DNA of 33,378 bases from Gemmatimonadota bacterium (GCA_025937815.1 JAICQP010000010.1:1-33378); one strand, 5' to 3'. Positions 5,662 through 13,809 are shown, counted from the stretch's first letter. Numbers and translations are program-made. The notes: a model not told the origin generated them from the sequence alone.

Positions 5662-6417
5662 TCAGATGTTCTCGGCGATGAAGGGGAAGAGGGGTAGCAA
5701 CCAGCGGTTCAGGTACGCCGCCAGGACGGCAAAGTAGTTCGTGAAGATCAGGAGCCCGACGGCGACGAGAACGATCCCGCTCGCGATCTCGATCGGACGG
5801 AGCCACCCGCGGACGCGGCGGAAGGCGGTCAGGAAGACGTTGAAGCCGAGCGCCGCCACGAAGAACGGCAGCCCGAGCCCGAGACCATAGACGACCAGCA
5901 GCCCCACGCCGGCGCGGAGCTCTCCGCTCGAGCCGGCCATCGTCAGGATCGCGCCCAGGATCGGGCCGATGCAGGGCGTCCACCCGGCGCCGAACGCGAA
6001 TCCGACCACCACCGACCCCAGCATCCCCTCGGGCCGCTCCTGGAGATGGACGCGCCGCTCGCGGCGCAGGAACGCGAAGTTCAGGAGCCCCGTGATGTGA
6101 AGCCCGAAGAGCACGATCACGAGGCCCGCGACGCGCCGGATCCAGACCTGGTTCGACCGCAGGAACTGCCCCAGCGCGGTGGCCGAGGCGCCGAGCGCGA
6201 CGAACACGAGCATGAATCCGAGGATGAACAGGAGCGAGTGCAGGATCGTCAGCCGGCGGACGCGCGCGCGCGCGTCGGGCCCCGGTGCGGAGAGCTCGTC
6301 GAACGTCAGCCCGGTGATGAAGGAGAGGTAGCTCGGGAAGAGCGGAAGGACGCAGGGACTGAGGAACGAGACGACGCCGGCGCCGAAGGCGACCGCCAGC
6401 GACAGCTCACCGCCCAT
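5662..6417 (-). CDS. ccdA: CcdA/DsbD-type transmembrane thiol-disulfide electron transporter
   Basis: 251 residues, six predicted membrane helices, the usual size for stand-alone CcdA. It moves electrons from cytoplasmic thioredoxin across the inner membrane to extracytoplasmic thioredoxin-like proteins, for cytochrome c haem-site reduction or disulfide repair. The redox cysteines sit in the two pseudo-symmetric halves: SFLSPCVLPLFPSY (Cys22) and GWTPCIGPI (Cys149). ATG at 6415-6417 lies inside the end of the TlpA-like gene (11-bp overlap), which supports coupling and a shared pathway. Intergenic repeat copy 1 starts right after the stop. Confidence 0.93.
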   Translation of the reverse strand: MGGELSLAVAFGAGVVSFLSPCVLPLFPSYLSFITGLTFDELSAPGPDARARVRRLTILHSLLFILGFMLVFVALGASATALGQFLRSNQVWIRRVAGLVIVLFGLHITGLLNFAFLRRERRVHLQERPEGMLGSVVVGFAFGAGWTPCIGPILGAILTMAGSSGELRAGVGLLVVYGLGLGLPFFVAALGFNVFLTAFRRVRGWLRPIEIASGIVLVAVGLLIFTNYFAVLAAYLNRWLLPLFPFIAENI

Positions 6418-7027
6418 CCCCGTCCAATGCCGCGGTCTCGTCCGCCATGAGGTCCGCCGCCGCCGGGGCGAGCCCGAGCGCGACCTTGATCCCGTACTCG
6501 AACTCCTCCTTCGGCCGCGGGCCGATCCATTCCTCGACGATCGTGCCGTCCTTGACGAGGAGCGACGTCGGAAGCCAGGGCGAAAGCTCGTAGGACTCGA
6601 GCATGCGCGGCGTCCCGATCACCGAGACGTAGCTCATCCCGACCTCGGCGGCGAAGTCGCGCGAGTCGCGCGGCAGGTCGTTGACCGTCACCCCGAGGAC
6701 CATGAACCCCTTCGGCCCGTAGGTTTCGTCGAGGGCCATGAGATCGGGGATCTCGATCTTGCAGGGACCGCACCACGAGGCCCAGAAGTTCATGAGGATC
6801 ACGGGGATCGAATCGAGCGACGCCAGCGTCAGGGTGTCGCCGTCGAGCGTCTCGAGCTCGAACGCCGGCGCCTCGCGGATGGCCTCGAGCGCGTAGCCAT
6901 CGCCGCCTTCACCGTCGCCCGTGCGCGCGCCGCTCTCGCGGCCGCACGCCGCGGCGAACAGTGCGAAGGCGGGCACGGCGAGCAGGCACCCCGGGGTCCG
7001 CCGGAGCATCGATTGGATTGGCGACAT
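6407..7027 (-). CDS. TlpA/ResA-like thioredoxin-family lipoprotein
   Basis: An exported thiol-disulfide reductase. The signal peptide ends in a lipobox (LFAAAC) followed by GRESG, so the mature protein is probably lipid-anchored. The thioredoxin domain has WASWCGPCK, the CxxC active site, followed by EIPDLMALDETY and a cis-Pro segment SLLVKDGTIVEEW typical of TlpA/ResA. It probably receives electrons from CcdA, whose start codon it overlaps. The start is uncertain: ATG at 7027 is used here; GTG at 7045 and ATG at 7009 (giving MLRRTPGC) are in frame, and none has a clear ribosome-binding site. Confidence 0.9.
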   Translation of the reverse strand: MSPIQSMLRRTPGCLLAVPAFALFAAACGRESGARTGDGEGGDGYALEAIREAPAFELETLDGDTLTLASLDSIPVILMNFWASWCGPCKIEIPDLMALDETYGPKGFMVLGVTVNDLPRDSRDFAAEVGMSYVSVIGTPRMLESYELSPWLPTSLLVKDGTIVEEWIGPRPKEEFEYGIKVALGLAPAAADLMADETAALDGDGR

Positions 7028-7084
7028 GGACGGAAAATGTACCACGCCGTGGGGCGATGCGAAAATCGGGCCTGCGGCGCTCCG

Positions 7085-7804
7085 CTACTCGATCTCGCCC
7101 AGCGCCCAGGCCGCCACGCGGCGGACGCCCGGGTCCTCGTCGCCGCCGAGAACGGGGATCAGGAGGGGTATCGCTCGCGCGTCCTCGATCTCCCCCAGCG
7201 CCCAGGTCGCGGCCGCCCGGACCTCCGGGCTCGCGTCGTCCAGCACGCCCCCGAGCGCGTCGATCGACGCCGGGTCCTCGGAGTATCCCAGCCCCAGCGC
7301 GCCGATCGCCCGCTGGTCCGGGTCCGCCGAGGCGAGCGCCCCACGAAGGGCGTCCATCCCGCGCGGGTCCTGCATGCGGCCGAGCTTGAGGGCCGCGATC
7401 CGACGGACACACGGGTCCGGATCGGCGAGCGCCGTCGCCAGGGGCGCGACCGCCGCTGCCGATACGACAGACCGCTCGTCCTCCCCGTCACCCACCGCCC
7501 ACTGGATCGTAGCCCGCTCGAGCGCGGTCAGCGGCGCCCCGACGCCGGCCAGCTCGTCGGCGGTGGACGACCAGCCGTGGCGCCCGTCCACCGCGCGGAC
7601 TGCGAGCTCGCACACGACGGGATCGGACCCGCGCACGGTCGCGAGAAGCGCGACCGCGAGAGAATCGGCGGGGATCGCCGGGGCCGCCGCCTGGGCCTGG
7701 GCTGCCGGCCCCGCATCGCCGGACCGGCAGACCACGAGGATCGCGGCCGCCAGGACGAACAGGCTCGCTATCCCCGCGGCTCGAACGGGAGTGCCGCGCT
7801 TCAC
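7085..7804 (-). CDS. Exported HEAT-repeat protein
   Basis: 239 residues. A hydrophobic N-terminus (ASLFVLAAAILVVC) suggests export, possibly as a lipoprotein on the Cys of LVVC. From about residue 110 it carries HEAT/PBS-lyase-type repeats of about 31 residues (VRRIAALKLGRM, QRAIGALGLGY, VRAAATWALGEIEDARAI, VRRVAAWALGEIE), nearly the same consensus as the tail of the upstream M56 protein. The start is GTG at 7802-7804, overlapping the TGA of the M56 gene (GTGA), so translation is probably coupled. The chain stops just after a WALGEIE motif, as if ending mid-repeat. Function unknown; a partner or paralogue of the M56-HEAT sensor domain is likely. Confidence 0.82.
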   Translation of the reverse strand: MKRGTPVRAAGIASLFVLAAAILVVCRSGDAGPAAQAQAAAPAIPADSLAVALLATVRGSDPVVCELAVRAVDGRHGWSSTADELAGVGAPLTALERATIQWAVGDGEDERSVVSAAAVAPLATALADPDPCVRRIAALKLGRMQDPRGMDALRGALASADPDQRAIGALGLGYSEDPASIDALGGVLDDASPEVRAAATWALGEIEDARAIPLLIPVLGGDEDPGVRRVAAWALGEIE

Positions 7805-10107
7805 ATGTCCCCCAGCGCCTCGGCGGCCTTCCTGCGGACCTCGGGGTCCTCGTCCTTGAGGAGCTGGACGAGAACGTCGTACACGGACGCGTCGTCCATC
7901 TCGAGGAGCGCCCAGATGGCGGTATCGCGGATCTCCGCGTCCGGATCGTCGAGGAGCGTACGGAGCGCCGGGATCGCCGACGGATCCTGGATCTCGCCGA
8001 GCGCCCAGACGGCGGTCTTTCGCGTCTCCTTGTCGCTGTCGGAGAGCGCCTCGGTCAGCGGGGCGACGCCGCGCGCGTCCTGGATCTCTCCCAGAGCCCA
8101 GACGGCCTTTCGCCGGACCTCGACGTCCGAGTCGCGGATCACGGCCCTGAGCGCATCGACGCCGCTGGGGCTCTGGATCTCGCCGAGCGCCCACGCCGCG
8201 GTCGCGCGGACCTCGGCGTCGGAGTCACGGAGCGCCCCGCCGAGCGCGGAGACCGCCGCCGGGCTTTCGATCTCGCCCAGCGCCCACGCGGCCTTGCGCC
8301 GGATCTCGACGTCGCCGTCGCGAAGCGCGGGCGTCAGCCACTCGACGGCTTCGGCGCTCTCGATCTCGCCCAGCGCCCAGACCGCCATGCGCCGCACCTC
8401 GAGATCGGAGTCGCGCAACGCCGCGCCGAGCGCGGGCACCGCCTCGGGGCTCTCGATCTCGCCCAGCGCCCAGACCGCCATCGCGCGGACGTCGACGGAC
8501 TCGTCGGAGCGCGCGGCCTGCGAGAGCCCGCCTACCGCGGCGGGGCTCTCGATCTCTCCCAGCGCCCAGGCGGCCATCTTGCGGACGCCCGCGTCCGGAT
8601 CCGTGCGGAGGGCCTCCAGCAACGCCTCGACGGCGCGCGGATCGGACAGCGAGCCCAGCGCCTGGGCGGAGCTCAGGCGCACCGCCGCATCCGGATCGTC
8701 GAGCGCGGCGGAGAGCGCCACGATCAGCCGCGCCTCGGCCTCCTTCTGCTCCTTGGTCTTCGTGTAGCTCTGCGATTCGCTCTGGGACGTCGAGACGCTC
8801 GTCTGGTACTGGAACGGCGCCAGCTTCTCGACCGTCACGACACCGTCTCCGATCCCGTTTCCGAGCCCGTTTCCGATCCCCCCGGCCTCGGCCTTCGGGT
8901 CCTTCTTCTCGACTTCCTCGTTCGCGCTCGAGGGATCGAACGCGATCCAGTCGGCGGGGAGATTCTCCGCCTCCCAGGTCTGTTCCTCCGCGGTTACGCC
9001 ATCGGGTCGCATCTGAGCCGGCGCCATCGCGGCCAGCGGCAGGACCACCAGCGCCAGGCCGGCCGCGAGCGCGAGCTTGCGCCGCGCCGTCATCGCGTGC
9101 CGGGCGACGCCGGGCTCGAGGATCGCCAGGAGCCGTCCCTCGAAGCTGGACCGCTGGGCCATCGGGACGGCGGCCGCCGGCGCGTTCGAGCGCCCCGCCG
9201 CGCGCACGATGTCGAGCAGGTGCGCGGCGTACTCGGAGGCGCGCGTTCCGGCGCCTAGCACGAGGTCGTCGCAGGCCCGCTCGCTTTCGTGCCGGAGCCG
9301 CCGTGCGGCGATCCACGCGAGCGGATGGAACCAGTAGAGCGCGCAGGCGACCCAGGCGATGAGGTGGGTGGCGAGGTCGCCGCGGTGGACGTGCGCGAGC
9401 TCGTGGAGGAGCACCGCCTCGCGGCGCTCCTCGCTCCAGCCGTCCGACTCCTCAGGCAGGACGACGGCCGGCCGCAGCACGCCGCACGTCACCGGCATCG
9501 CGGCCGCGTCGCTCCGGACCACGCGGACAGCCGTCCGCAGGTTCAGGCGCTCGGTTACGCGGCCGAGAGGCAACAGCCACTGTGGCCCCGAGAGCGGCTC
9601 CGCGCGGCGCGCCAGGCGCCACATCCACGCCATCCCCGCCAGGATCCGCAGCAGGATCAGGGCGGCGATCGCGAGCCACGCGGAGAGAGCGAGCCGCCAC
9701 GGGTCGCGCGCGAGGCGGCCGAAGAACCCGGACGATTCCGTTCCTCCGGCGCGGTCGGTGATTCCCGCGGATGGACTCCCCGCGGTGCCGGCAGAGCCGC
9801 CGCCGTCGGCGACCTCGTCGTTCCAGGTCGTGGGTGTCGGAGTCGGCATGGGCGTGTCCGCCAGCGCGTCGGCCGAGATCGCGGCCGCGTCCCCGGACGG
9901 TGCCCCCCAGCCCGGCGGCAAGACGTCCATCCGCCACGGGAGGACCATGGTCAGCGCCGGCACGGCGATGACGCCGACCAGGGCGGCGCTCCACACGGCG
10001 TGCCGCGCGGCGGCCGAGGCCCCGCGGAGGAGCGCGGTCAGCCCGAAGGCGGCGAGGAGCACGAGCGTGACCTTGACGATGATCGCTACGACCGCCGATT
10101 CCATCAT
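7801..10107 (-). CDS. BlaR1/MecR1-type M56 membrane metalloprotease fused to a HEAT-repeat array
   Basis: 768 residues. Two N-terminal membrane helices, a Pro/Thr/Gly-rich segment (about 65-125), further helices near 138-160 and 250-265, and the M56 zinc-protease site VLLHELAHVHRGD (His235, Glu236, His239) with ERACDD downstream. A last helix (LALAAGLALVVLPLAAM, 345-361) leads into a Ser/Gln-rich linker and about ten 31-residue HEAT repeats with consensus WALGEIESPxAVxAL...D.D.EVRR.A (about 461-768). In BlaR1 this position holds the extracellular penicillin-binding sensor; here that domain is absent. The ATG at 10105-10107 overlaps the repressor gene stop (ATGA) and has AGGAAGG upstream. It probably inactivates the neighbouring BlaI-type repressor on sensing an extracytoplasmic signal. 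Confidence 0.9.
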   Translation of the reverse strand: MMESAVVAIIVKVTLVLLAAFGLTALLRGASAAARHAVWSAALVGVIAVPALTMVLPWRMDVLPPGWGAPSGDAAAISADALADTPMPTPTPTTWNDEVADGGGSAGTAGSPSAGITDRAGGTESSGFFGRLARDPWRLALSAWLAIAALILLRILAGMAWMWRLARRAEPLSGPQWLLPLGRVTERLNLRTAVRVVRSDAAAMPVTCGVLRPAVVLPEESDGWSEERREAVLLHELAHVHRGDLATHLIAWVACALYWFHPLAWIAARRLRHESERACDDLVLGAGTRASEYAAHLLDIVRAAGRSNAPAAAVPMAQRSSFEGRLLAILEPGVARHAMTARRKLALAAGLALVVLPLAAMAPAQMRPDGVTAEEQTWEAENLPADWIAFDPSSANEEVEKKDPKAEAGGIGNGLGNGIGDGVVTVEKLAPFQYQTSVSTSQSESQSYTKTKEQKEAEARLIVALSAALDDPDAAVRLSSAQALGSLSDPRAVEALLEALRTDPDAGVRKMAAWALGEIESPAAVGGLSQAARSDESVDVRAMAVWALGEIESPEAVPALGAALRDSDLEVRRMAVWALGEIESAEAVEWLTPALRDGDVEIRRKAAWALGEIESPAAVSALGGALRDSDAEVRATAAWALGEIQSPSGVDALRAVIRDSDVEVRRKAVWALGEIQDARGVAPLTEALSDSDKETRKTAVWALGEIQDPSAIPALRTLLDDPDAEIRDTAIWALLEMDDASVYDVLVQLLKDEDPEVRRKAAEALGDM
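7804..8727 (-). repeat. Tandem 93-bp coding repeats (HEAT array)
   Basis: About ten tandem units of 93 nt encode the HEAT repeats of the M56 protein. The DNA is strongly conserved around the ATCTCGCCCAGCGCCCA block (encoding WALGEI), suggesting recent unit duplication or gene conversion. Confidence 0.8.
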
Positions 10108-10493
10108 CTGCCTTCCTTTCGCGCCTCTTCGATCCGGGCCGCGAGCCGATCGAGCTCTTCCGGCGCGAGCGCGGTGTCCGACATCCGGAGTAGCGCGACC
10201 GCCGCCTGCTCGGCGGAGCCGCCGAAGAACGTCTTCACGATGTGCTGGAGCGCGCTCCTGCGGGCTCGCTCGGGGGCCACAGCGGGATGGTAGACGTACT
10301 TGCGGCCTTCCTCCTTGTGGCGCAGACGTCCCTTGTCCTCGAGGACGCGCATGGTGGCTCTGACGGCCGAGTAGCTCGGCGGATCGGGCATCTCTTCCAG
10401 GACTTCCTGGACCGTCGCGCTGCCACGCCGATAGACGACGTCCATGATCTGACGCTCGCGCGGGCTGAGGCCGATGGGGGGCTTCTCGCTCAT
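10104..10493 (-). CDS. BlaI/MecI/CopY-family transcriptional repressor
   Basis: 129 residues, typical for the family. The N-terminal winged helix is LSPRERQIMDVVYRRGSATVQEVLEEM, then SYSAVRATMRVLEDKGRLRH (recognition helix) and the wing EGRKYVYHPAV; the C-terminal helices (from about 80) match the dimerisation region cleaved by BlaR1-type proteases in known systems. ATG at 10491-10493 with GGAGG 5 nt upstream. It is first in an operon with the M56-HEAT protease and an exported HEAT protein. A perfect palindrome over the promoter -10 is its likely operator, giving autoregulation. The inducer is unknown; no beta-lactamase is nearby. Confidence 0.92.
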   Translation of the reverse strand: MSEKPPIGLSPRERQIMDVVYRRGSATVQEVLEEMPDPPSYSAVRATMRVLEDKGRLRHKEEGRKYVYHPAVAPERARRSALQHIVKTFFGGSAEQAAVALLRMSDTALAPEELDRLAARIEEARKEGR

Positions 10494-10530
10494 GCATCCT
10501 CCGGAACGTGGAATCGATCGTGGGTCCCGC

Positions 10531-10552
10531 TTCTGCTAGAATTCTAGCAGAA
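10531..10552. promoter_or_regulatory. 22-bp perfect palindrome, probable BlaI-type operator
   Basis: TTCTGCTAGAA followed immediately by its exact reverse complement, centred on an EcoRI-like AATT. It covers the -10 (TAGAAT) of the repressor promoter, ideal for repression by a dimeric winged-helix protein. I see no second copy in the window. Confidence 0.82.
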
Positions 10553-10569
10553 CAGCGGATTCGCGTCAA
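10541..10569 (-). promoter_or_regulatory. Sigma-70-type promoter of the BlaI/M56-HEAT/HEAT operon
   Basis: Minus strand TTGACG (plus 10564-10569), exactly 17 nt, TAGAAT (10541-10546, 5/6 match). The strongest promoter-like sequence in the window. The -10 lies inside the 22-bp palindrome. Confidence 0.75.
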
Positions 10570-10578
10570 GCCCTTCGC

Positions 10579-10608
10579 TTGACCGCGTAACCGGAGCCGT
10601 GGTAGGCT
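10579..10608 (+). promoter_or_regulatory. Candidate promoter for the small lipoprotein
   Basis: TTGACC (10579-10584), 18-nt spacer, TAGGCT (10603-10608), 29 nt before the GTG start at 10638. It is back to back with the repressor promoter; the two -35 boxes are only 9 bp apart, so the palindrome-bound repressor might affect both. Confidence 0.45.
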
Positions 10609-10637
10609 GACGGCTCTTTTCCACCAGGAGGTTTCTC

Positions 10638-10973
10638 GTGCAGAACGCCCATCGCATGCTCACCGTGCTGCTCCTGCTCGCCGTCGCGTGTCAGCCGCCC
10701 GCCGAAGAGGTCGGCGAGACCACTGCCGTTCCGGACACGACTCCGGCGGTTCGCCCGCGCGTGAGCGCCGCGGACCCCTTCGATGGCTGCTACTACCAGG
10801 GACAGCGGTTCAGCATGGGCGCGGTGAAGATCCAGGACGGGGTGCTGAAGAAGTGCGTCGAGGAGAGGACCTGGCACAACGTGGACGGCTTCGGCAACCT
10901 GATCCCCGAGGATCCCGCGGTGGAGGACACGCTCTCGGCTCCCGCCGCGGAGGCCACGACGGAAACCGGTTAA
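10638..10973 (+). CDS. Small lipoprotein with a DUF1496-like cysteine motif
   Basis: 111 residues. GTG start at 10638 with a strong AGGAGG 7 nt upstream. The signal peptide MLTVLLLLAVAC ends in a lipobox (LAVAC). A Pro/Thr-rich linker leads to CYYQGQRFSMGAVKIQDGVL..C, which resembles the DUF1496 pattern (C-Y-Y-x-G...YS.GA.....G....C); the two cysteines may form a disulfide. The tail is acidic and low complexity. Its stop overlaps the stop of the convergent ada gene by 3 bp through a palindromic TTAA. The function of this domain is not known to me. Confidence 0.75.
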   Translation: MQNAHRMLTVLLLLAVACQPPAEEVGETTAVPDTTPAVRPRVSAADPFDGCYYQGQRFSMGAVKIQDGVLKKCVEERTWHNVDGFGNLIPEDPAVEDTLSAPAAEATTETG

Positions 10974-12222: not shown

Positions 12223-13095
12223 CTACCACTCGTGGAACCTGTACCCCAGACAGCGGTGCACCAGGCGCGCGATGACGAAGTCGGGCGCGTGGAGACCCTC
12301 GATCGGCGCCAGCTCGACGACGTCCATGCCGACGACGTTCTTGTCCTGGAACACGTAGCCGAGGAAGCGCATCGTCTCGTGCCAGAAGCCGCCCCCCGGC
12401 TCGGGCGTTCCGGTGGCGGGAATCAGCGCGGGGTCGAAGTAGTCGACGTCGAAGGTGATGTAGACGGTTTCGGACAGCGTGTTGAGCACGGTGTCCATCC
12501 ACTCTTCGCCGTGCGCGATCCGGTGCGACCAGAAGACCGGCATATCCTCATCCTGGAGAAACTCGGCCTCCTCGACGGAGATCGCGCGTATTCCCAGGGG
12601 CACGACGGGGACGCCGAGCTCGTGGACGCGCCGCATGACGCACGCGTGGGACCAGGGAGTCCCCTCGTAGCTCTCCCGCAGATCGGCATGGGCGTCGAGC
12701 TGGAGCACGGACAGGTCTTCGAACGCAGCCTTCGCGGCGCGCACGGGGCCGGTCGTCAGCGAGTGCTCGCCCCCCAGGAACATCGGAAACTTCCCGTCCG
12801 CGAAGAGCCGCGCGGCGACGGATTCCAGCCCGTCCAGGAACGCCACCGGGTCGCCGCCCGAGACGTCGACCGCCGGCGCGGTGTGGATCCCGCCCTTCCT
12901 GTAGGGCTCCTCACGCAGCACCTCGTCGTAGAGCTCGACGTACCGCGAGGCGTCGAGGATCGCCGCCGGACCCTTCGCGGTCCCCGCGCCGTACGACACC
13001 GTCGCCTCCCAGGGCACCGGCACCACGACGCCGCGCGCGTCCTCGTACCGCGCTTCGTCGTCGGGTATTCCCAGAAAGTTCGCAGCTTCTGGCAT
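12223..13095 (-). CDS. speB: Agmatinase-type ureohydrolase
   Basis: 290 residues. Hydrolyses agmatine to putrescine and urea using two Mn2+ ions. The metal ligands are all present: GGEHS (His111), LDAHADLR (Asp134, His136, Asp138) and FDVDYFDP (Asp216, Asp218), followed by ATGTPEPGG, the ureohydrolase signature. Arginase and formiminoglutamase share these motifs; agmatinase is chosen because the next gene upstream is pyruvoyl-dependent arginine decarboxylase, which makes agmatine. ATG at 13093-13095. It is separated from that gene by repeat copy 2, which sits in the intercistronic space. Confidence 0.93.
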   Translation of the reverse strand: MPEAANFLGIPDDEARYEDARGVVVPVPWEATVSYGAGTAKGPAAILDASRYVELYDEVLREEPYRKGGIHTAPAVDVSGGDPVAFLDGLESVAARLFADGKFPMFLGGEHSLTTGPVRAAKAAFEDLSVLQLDAHADLRESYEGTPWSHACVMRRVHELGVPVVPLGIRAISVEEAEFLQDEDMPVFWSHRIAHGEEWMDTVLNTLSETVYITFDVDYFDPALIPATGTPEPGGGFWHETMRFLGYVFQDKNVVGMDVVELAPIEGLHAPDFVIARLVHRCLGYRFHEW

Positions 13096-13121
13096 GATCT
13101 CCAGTAGTGACCGTCAGGAGA

Positions 13122-13242
13122 GGTCGATCAAAACGACCCAGATTCTAGGCGAGCGACGAAGGACTTGCGAGGCGTGGTGAAACCCATGCCGCAGGCAAGG
13201 ACGAGGAAGCTCAACGACGAAGATGGGTCGTTTTCATCGACC
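13122..13242 (-). repeat. Intergenic structured repeat, copy 2 of 3
   Basis: 121 bp with 19-nt inverted arms (13122-13140 against 13224-13242), 18 of 19 complementary and the same C-C mismatch as copies 1 and 3. Outer stem GGTCGAT/ATCGACC and inner stem CGACCCA/TGGGTCG differ from the other copies on both sides, keeping the pairing. Interior hairpin GGCGTGG...CCATGCC (13170-13189). It begins 12 nt after the arginine decarboxylase stop and ends 26 nt before the agmatinase start, so it lies within a probable operon. Confidence 0.85.
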
Positions 13243-13254
13243 GAATCATCGACC

Positions 13255-13809
13255 TCAGTCGGGGTCGATGAGGACCGCCGCCGCAACGACCGTCGTCCAG
13301 AGCCCATTCTTGTCCCCCACCGCCGACTGCACGATGTTGCGCGTGGTTACGATCTCGTCCGAGATCTTCCACTGCTCCTTGCGCGCGTCCCACGCGGCCT
13401 CGGGATCGAAATCGACGCCCATCGCGGTGGCCAGCATCTGCGCCGCAAGATCTTCGGCGTAGTCCCCCGCGATCTTATCGGTCTGCCCGTAGCCGTGATG
13501 CTCCGACAGGTAGCCGTAATGGTCCGCGTCGCGCGGGATCGCCACGCCGATCGACGAGGCGATCAGCCGGTGCGGCTCGTTCGTGGAAGTCTCGGCCACG
13601 ACGGTGAACAGGACTTGACCGGGAAACAGCTTCTTCACACCCTCGTTCCGCGACACCATCCTGCAGCGTGGCGGGAAGATGCTGGAGACCCGCACGATGT
13701 TGTATTCGGCAATGTTCGCATCTCTGAGCGCGAGCTCGAACGACGCCAGCTTTTCGCGGTGACGCCCCACTCCGTGCGTCAGGAACATTTCCTTGGCGAC
13801 GAATGCCAC
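13255..13809 (-). CDS. Pyruvoyl-dependent arginine decarboxylase
   Basis: 184 residues. Decarboxylates arginine to agmatine with a self-made pyruvoyl cofactor. The self-cleavage site is in IVRVSSIFPPRC: cleavage between Ser42 and Ser43 would give beta and alpha chains. Other family features are THGVGRHREKLASFELAL near the N-terminus and the Glu/Asp-rich C-terminal half (EDLAAQMLATAMG). GTG at 13807-13809 with GAGGAGG 9 nt upstream. Such enzymes are best known from archaea and some bacteria; they replace the PLP-dependent SpeA. With agmatinase downstream this forms a two-step putrescine route. It begins 13 bp after the UshA-like gene. Confidence 0.95.
   Translation of the reverse strand: MAFVAKEMFLTHGVGRHREKLASFELALRDANIAEYNIVRVSSIFPPRCRMVSRNEGVKKLFPGQVLFTVVAETSTNEPHRLIASSIGVAIPRDADHYGYLSEHHGYGQTDKIAGDYAEDLAAQMLATAMGVDFDPEAAWDARKEQWKISDEIVTTRNIVQSAVGDKNGLWTTVVAAAVLIDPD

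Follow-up and report, generated by a model that had tools for sequence, protein, structure and literature searches.

A predicted BlaR1/BlaI-type switch of Gemmatimonadota with a HEAT-repeat array in place of the penicillin sensor

In staphylococci, the BlaR1-type switch serves penicillin sensing, and in the bla systems the sensor domain and the beta-lactamase output share one common fold. To our knowledge, almost all that is known of systems pairing an M56 protease with a BlaI repressor comes from beta-lactam resistance. Here we describe a locus of a soil-type Gemmatimonadota bacterium, located in a stretch of 33,378 nucleotides (GCA_025937815.1 JAICQP010000010.1:1-33378; the window, at its full length). 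It resembles BlaR1-BlaI of S. aureus and B. licheniformis and MecR1-MecI in that a BlaI-family repressor is combined with an M56 gluzincin that has the same zinc ligands at the same spacing and a C-terminal ectodomain, and in that an operator overlies the promoter and an exported output gene is predicted to stand under the same repressor. Unlike the class D beta-lactamase-like ectodomain of BlaR1 and MecR1, the ectodomain is here a HEAT array, and the outputs are a HEAT protein, a DUF5916 protein and PF00144 hydrolases. We consider it reasonably probable that the locus encodes a proteolytic switch of the BlaR1/BlaI type that has a periplasmic HEAT array instead of the penicillin sensor and governs an envelope regulon. 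For this proposal, the sequence shows the architecture and the catalytic residues, the operators and promoters of two species, the conservation across the phylum and the operators in front of the exported HEAT gene. The operon consists of blaI, the M56-HEAT protease gene and the exported HEAT gene, all on the minus strand, with the following features:

10531-10552, no strand: BlaI operator, 22-bp perfect palindrome TTCTGCTAGAATTCTAGCAGAA, with the conserved 16-bp core TGCTAGAATTCTAGCA at 10534-10549
10541-10569, minus strand: sigma-70-type promoter, TTGACG (10569-10564), 17 bp, TAGAAT (10546-10541), the -10 box within the operator
10104-10493, minus strand: blaI, penicillinase-repressor family PF03965 (Pfam), 129 aa
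7801-10107, minus strand: M56 metalloprotease with C-terminal HEAT array, 768 aa, its ATG start overlapping the blaI stop
9391-9405, minus strand: zinc motif HELAH, residues 235-239, followed by E276 and D280 at BlaR1 spacing (41 residues)
9142-9147, minus strand: S321-F322, possible self-cleavage site, an equivalent of BlaR1 Ser283-Phe284 judged by position
8755-9012, minus strand: linker from the last transmembrane helix to the HEAT array, residues 366-451, low-confidence model, probably flexible
7804-8754, minus strand: HEAT array, residues 452-768, about ten 31-residue repeats, predicted extracytoplasmic
7085-7804, minus strand: exported HEAT protein, 239 aa, its GTG start overlapping the M56 stop (GTGA)

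The Pfam matches agree with the original prediction of a BlaR1-type switch whose protease lacks the penicillin-binding sensor. The repressor matches Penicillinase_R (PF03965, E 4e-26), while the protease matches Peptidase_M56 (PF05569, residues 141-329, E 2e-32) and, in five stretches at about residues 460-768, HEAT_2 (E 3e-78). No penicillin-binding or transpeptidase domain was found in the M56-HEAT protein with Pfam, and in the place where BlaR1 and MecR1 carry a class D beta-lactamase-like penicillin-binding domain with an SxxK motif, residues 452-768 are HEAT repeats. The blaR1_generic model scores the protein at 81 bits versus a cut-off of 400. An AlphaFold2 model computed with 20 homologs comprises an M56 core of good confidence, a linker predicted to be disordered (residues 370-447) and a HEAT solenoid at residues 452-767 with a predicted local distance difference test (pLDDT) score mostly above 90. 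The array is built from units of about 31 residues, nine full and further partial ones, with a mean unit-to-unit identity of 35%, in line with the roughly ten repeats that had been noticed after the last helix. Its closest structures are the protein-binding alphaRep scaffolds (TM 0.9, about 40% identity). The 31-residue repeat fold is thus that of these artificial HEAT-like binders and of natural PBS-lyase HEAT proteins, but whereas those are soluble binders or lyase subunits, the array is here fused to a membrane protease. M. tuberculosis BlaR-BlaI (Rv1845c-Rv1846c) likewise pairs BlaI with an M56 protein that has no equivalent sensor domain (PMC9834060), yet it differs from the large HEAT ectodomain described here.

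A profile of ten relatives matches the S. aureus BlaR1 structures 8EXP/8EXS (E 7e-7). The distance from H235-E-L-A-H239 to E276xxxD280 is 41 residues, and D244 is the counterpart of the conserved BlaR1 D210; in S. aureus BlaR1 the corresponding residues H201, E242, D246 and D210 occur at the same spacing (PMC9834060). The HExxH and ExxxD motifs at BlaR1 spacing thus mark the protein as a putative M56 gluzincin. BlaR1 cleaves itself before Phe284, at Ser283-Phe284 (PMC9834060). In the relatives of the window protein, F322 is nearly invariant within the motif [SE]-F-EGR[LM]LAIL, and S321-F322 is by its position a possible equivalent of this self-cleavage site. From hydropathy, charge bias, the AlphaFold2 helices and BlaR1 homology we predict four transmembrane helices in an N-out/C-out arrangement with an extracellular C-terminal domain. 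Per sequence, the inside flanks hold 2.2, 3.5 and 4.1 lysine plus arginine residues, the outside ones 0.1-1.6. Since the zinc ligands and the topology match BlaR1, the HEAT array is predicted to be extracytoplasmic (periplasmic), and the topology check that had been proposed for this locus accordingly places it outside. Alternatively, the array might be cytoplasmic or a mere dimerisation scaffold, with sensing in the transmembrane region or the first extracellular loop (EL1), as may hold for M56 proteins lacking an ectodomain. A second M56 protein of the same genome (C21), which has almost no ectodomain, is linked to blaI and followed by DUF5916, so that a signal might be sensed even where no large ectodomain exists; the linker, moreover, is flexible. 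The four helices and the BlaR1-like charge pattern speak against this idea, as does a supported clade of M56-HEAT proteins (34 rows), which suggests that the array has been kept for its function; we regard the idea as very unlikely.

The named loci, 51 in number, are nearly all from Gemmatimonadota with a few from Acidobacteriota or Vicinamibacteria and Verrucomicrobia. Of 43 M56-HEAT genes, 38 have at least 1.5 kb of downstream sequence and were counted for the triad. A separate HEAT gene on the same strand follows directly in 33 of these 38 (32 found by script, L083 by eye), so the proposed search for M56-HEAT neighbours extends the link to the second HEAT gene across the phylum. Upstream, blaI is present at 37 of the 43 genes, the rest being mostly cut by contig ends; in the window as well, a gene for a BlaI-family winged-helix repressor lies next to the protease gene. 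Few outliers aside, the M56-HEAT proteins form one clade (34 rows, 97% in the Shimodaira-Hasegawa-like approximate likelihood ratio test), and the protein of the window is 69% identical to that of a sister species (G001). Judged from these comparisons, the module is an old, conserved layout of Gemmatimonadota. Related M56 proteins carry DUF4097-like or 'SSDYE' helical-repeat ectodomains or none; those with the former two fall outside the main M56-HEAT clade but resemble its members in their BlaI pairing, and several of them are followed by DUF5916. The helical repeat with I-S-S-D-Y/H-E motifs was seen in L049, L050, L051, L091 and L095, with L050 and L095 also preceding DUF5916. A DUF4097-like beta ectodomain is present in L072 (4997-7369), L073, L089 and L098, in tandem with a BlaI/M56-HEAT pair in L072 and L073.

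The third gene of the operon encodes a protein with a HEAT_2 match (Pfam, E 3e-22) and an N-terminal hydrophobic signal or anchor, and its start shares the GTGA overlap, as had been noted from the window alone. The exported HEAT proteins are a single orthologous family. Gly59, Cys65 and Cys132 are invariant in 22 homologs and lie within an N-terminal module, which is followed by about four repeats (window type) or about nine (Gemmatimonadaceae) and often, at the end, by a Pro/Trp-rich tail. The invariant cysteine pair together with the signal sequence leads us to infer a disulfide. The short interval that follows the M56 stop holds a BlaI-type site (TGYTRNNNNNNYARCA with no more than one mismatch) in 18 of 33 triads; owing to this operator of its own in many relatives, the exported HEAT gene looks like an induced, BlaI-controlled output comparable to blaZ. 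The exported protein had been suggested as partner, decoy or target. The link between sensor and exported protein is conserved across the phylum; given its own BlaI-type operator in many relatives, the exported HEAT gene behaves as a regulated output and not only in a role of this kind. Alternatively, the exported protein might be a constitutive co-receptor or inhibitor that is docked on the sensor array by HEAT-HEAT contacts and displaced by the ligand. The translational coupling of the M56 and HEAT genes in the window, L058, L087, L092 and L101 would suit a fixed stoichiometry, and the repeat type is common to both proteins. The operator in Gemmatimonadaceae, however, points to a separately controlled output, and the similarity of sensor and effector within a locus is just weakly raised, which makes this a rather improbable explanation.

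In the window, the repressor gene comes first and has the clear operator that had been reported for it. TTCTGCTAGAATTCTAGCAGAA is a perfect palindrome, of which 0 are expected by chance within the window, and it covers the -10 box of a consensus promoter, TTGACG-17-TAGAAT, the sole promoter-like match in 6300-10700 (0.1 expected). A palindromic operator thus lies over the promoter of the operon and, as outlined below, over those of target genes, with BlaI binding being predicted. The suggested genome search with the full 22-mer returned the window copy only, with no second site at up to three mismatches; hence, the 22-bp operator finds no regulon, whereas the 16-bp core derived from relatives does and was used instead. 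The palindromes upstream of blaI in relatives have TGYTRNNNNNNYARCA in common and are often in tandem, 17-21 bp apart; the pattern TGTTGANNNNTCAACA proved too strict for Gemmatimonadaceae. In the window's own genome (G000), TGCTANNNNNNTAGCA has five exact sites, which precede the blaI of the window, the second blaI (C21), a PF00144-TPR serine hydrolase gene (C137) and, twice in tandem, a CBM9-DUF5916 gene (C264). The sister species has the core before blaI and before the PF00144 and DUF5916 orthologs, again in tandem at DUF5916. All six promoters in the two species follow the form TTGAC(A/G), 16-18 bp, TAG(A/T)AT with the -10 box inside the operator, and their -35 boxes match the consensus at 5-6 of six positions. 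With one mismatch allowed, one extra site appears in G000 (C119), syntenic with a site in G001 (C48), and in G001 a further one before a pair of M61-like peptidase and PF00144 genes (C122). The conserved C119/C48 sites and those in C122 and C78 have no -35 box and are considered weak, and sites in G050 (L153) and G068 (L154) were set aside as chance because they are located inside genes. In G017, a perfect site precedes the gene of an exported M1-like peptidase, the family being assigned by eye from sequence. Tandem BlaI-type operators are also found before an ADOP/MacB-like permease gene at about 6667-6701 of L140 (G054).

DUF5916 genes also recur beside M56 genes in cis, namely at 17 loci when counted independently of operators, and the order blaI-M56HEAT-HEAT-DUF5916 is present in L040, L042, L047, L052, L066 and L067; the family has about 3-15 matches per genome. 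A structural model resembles CBM9 in its N-terminal part and outer-membrane beta-barrels in other parts, and the CBM9-DUF5916 protein is probably an outer-membrane barrel.

The PF00144 hydrolases raise the question of whether the system is a cell-wall or beta-lactam response, in which antibiotic damage would be perceived indirectly, by way of a periplasmic protein or fragment bound to the array, and in which the hydrolases would serve as beta-lactamases or D,D-peptidases. They have an SxxK motif and the same operator in both species, PF00144 genes adjoin five further triad loci, and M. tuberculosis BlaR, also devoid of a penicillin sensor, has been tied to beta-lactams (PMC9834060). In contrast, the hydrolases score 42-56 bits versus the curated NCBIfam cut-off of 415 and thus do not qualify as class C beta-lactamases by that model, which makes ordinary beta-lactam resistance unlikely; a true beta-lactamase or PBP2a, as regulated by BlaR1 and MecR1, was not found among these targets. 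The sensor, moreover, has no penicillin-binding domain, and the HEAT protein and DUF5916 recur most often as partners. Although we consider this alternative unlikely on balance, an antibiotic or cell-wall role is possible in view of these members of the beta-lactamase superfamily in the predicted regulon, and the label 'non-antibiotic' of the original prediction goes further than the evidence. In the genome of the window, a gene for an extracytoplasmic function sigma factor is followed by an unannotated 306-aa gene and by genes for two exported HEAT proteins that differ in type (L112, 3974-7691, C137); this group directly precedes the operator-bearing PF00144 gene, and its two HEAT genes do so in the sister species as well (L136).

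For the preferred reading, a proteolytic switch with a periplasmic HEAT sensor, we infer topology, repression, proteolysis, type of ligand and feedback as follows. At rest, BlaI would occupy TGCTAGNNNNCTAGCA, which covers the -10 boxes, and repress three transcription units, namely blaI-M56HEAT-HEAT, the PF00144 serine hydrolase with TPRs and the CBM9-DUF5916 gene. A macromolecular ligand of the envelope, be it a protein, a peptide or a fragment of the cell wall or outer membrane, would bind the HEAT array. Probably once the protease has cleaved itself before Phe322, this would free its gluzincin site in the cytoplasm to cut BlaI, so that the promoters open. The exported HEAT protein would then be induced together with the envelope enzymes and the barrel and, by analogy to bla, may likewise bind this ligand and return the switch to its resting state. 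As sensor and output are of one fold, as in bla, a competition of the soluble HEAT protein for the ligand is suggested. That the membrane receptor induces, together with a dedicated DUF5916 outer-membrane barrel, a soluble, disulfide-stabilised HEAT protein which captures the same macromolecular envelope ligand and turns the system off is a tentative extension of this scheme.

Several observations weigh against the proposal. The linker of about 80 residues is predicted to be disordered, and it is short or absent in some relatives, which makes a rigid, BlaR1-like signal transfer doubtful. A reversed-pattern operator control gives about as many or more matches. This control is not composition-matched for CTAG-containing motifs and was not used as a null; the regulon therefore rests on promoter architecture and cross-species conservation and not on raw counts. 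The p-value of about 1e-18 for the 18 of 33 exported HEAT genes with their own operator, calculated versus the locus background, counts related loci as independent. Sensor and exported HEAT proteins of the same locus are just slightly more alike than cross-locus pairs, with kinship uncontrolled, and hence the comparison does not establish a shared ligand. Finally, the DUF5916 model is of low confidence (pLDDT 57), and of it only the likeness to CBM9 and to outer-membrane barrels was used.

Two genes downstream of the exported HEAT gene are possible members of the operon, graded so because their linkage is retained in the sister species alone:

6407-7045, minus strand: TlpA-like thioredoxin, downstream of the HEAT gene
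5662-6417, minus strand: CcdA-like protein, downstream of the TlpA-like gene

These thiol-redox genes (5662-7045) come after a HEAT gene with two invariant cysteines; a TlpA-CcdA pair is also located near an M56 gene without HEAT repeats in L138. On the plus strand, a divergent gene for a putative lipoprotein of 111 aa (10638-10973) starts 86 bp from the operator, which may also affect it; in the sister species, an ortholog is found at the corresponding position (L135, 820-1032). Further away, an arginase-family gene, likely an agmatinase, adjoins a pyruvoyl-dependent arginine decarboxylase-like gene (12223-13809, minus strand), a probable polyamine pair.

A literature search that had subscription papers and preprints outside its scope revealed no paper pairing BlaR1 with a HEAT repeat, and the novelty is therefore provisional; a wider search returned irrelevant papers, and in the library searched no paper on DUF5916 turned up either. 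The recurrent pairing with M56 genes gives the DUF5916 family a first regulatory context. Taken together, a HEAT array stands in the place of the penicillin sensor, and the controlled genes appear to be those of an exported HEAT protein, an outer-membrane protein and exported enzymes and not a true beta-lactamase. The ectodomain, the palindromic operator, the regulon predicted in two species and the conserved exported output make the ligand question for M56/BlaI systems without a penicillin sensor testable in one phylum.

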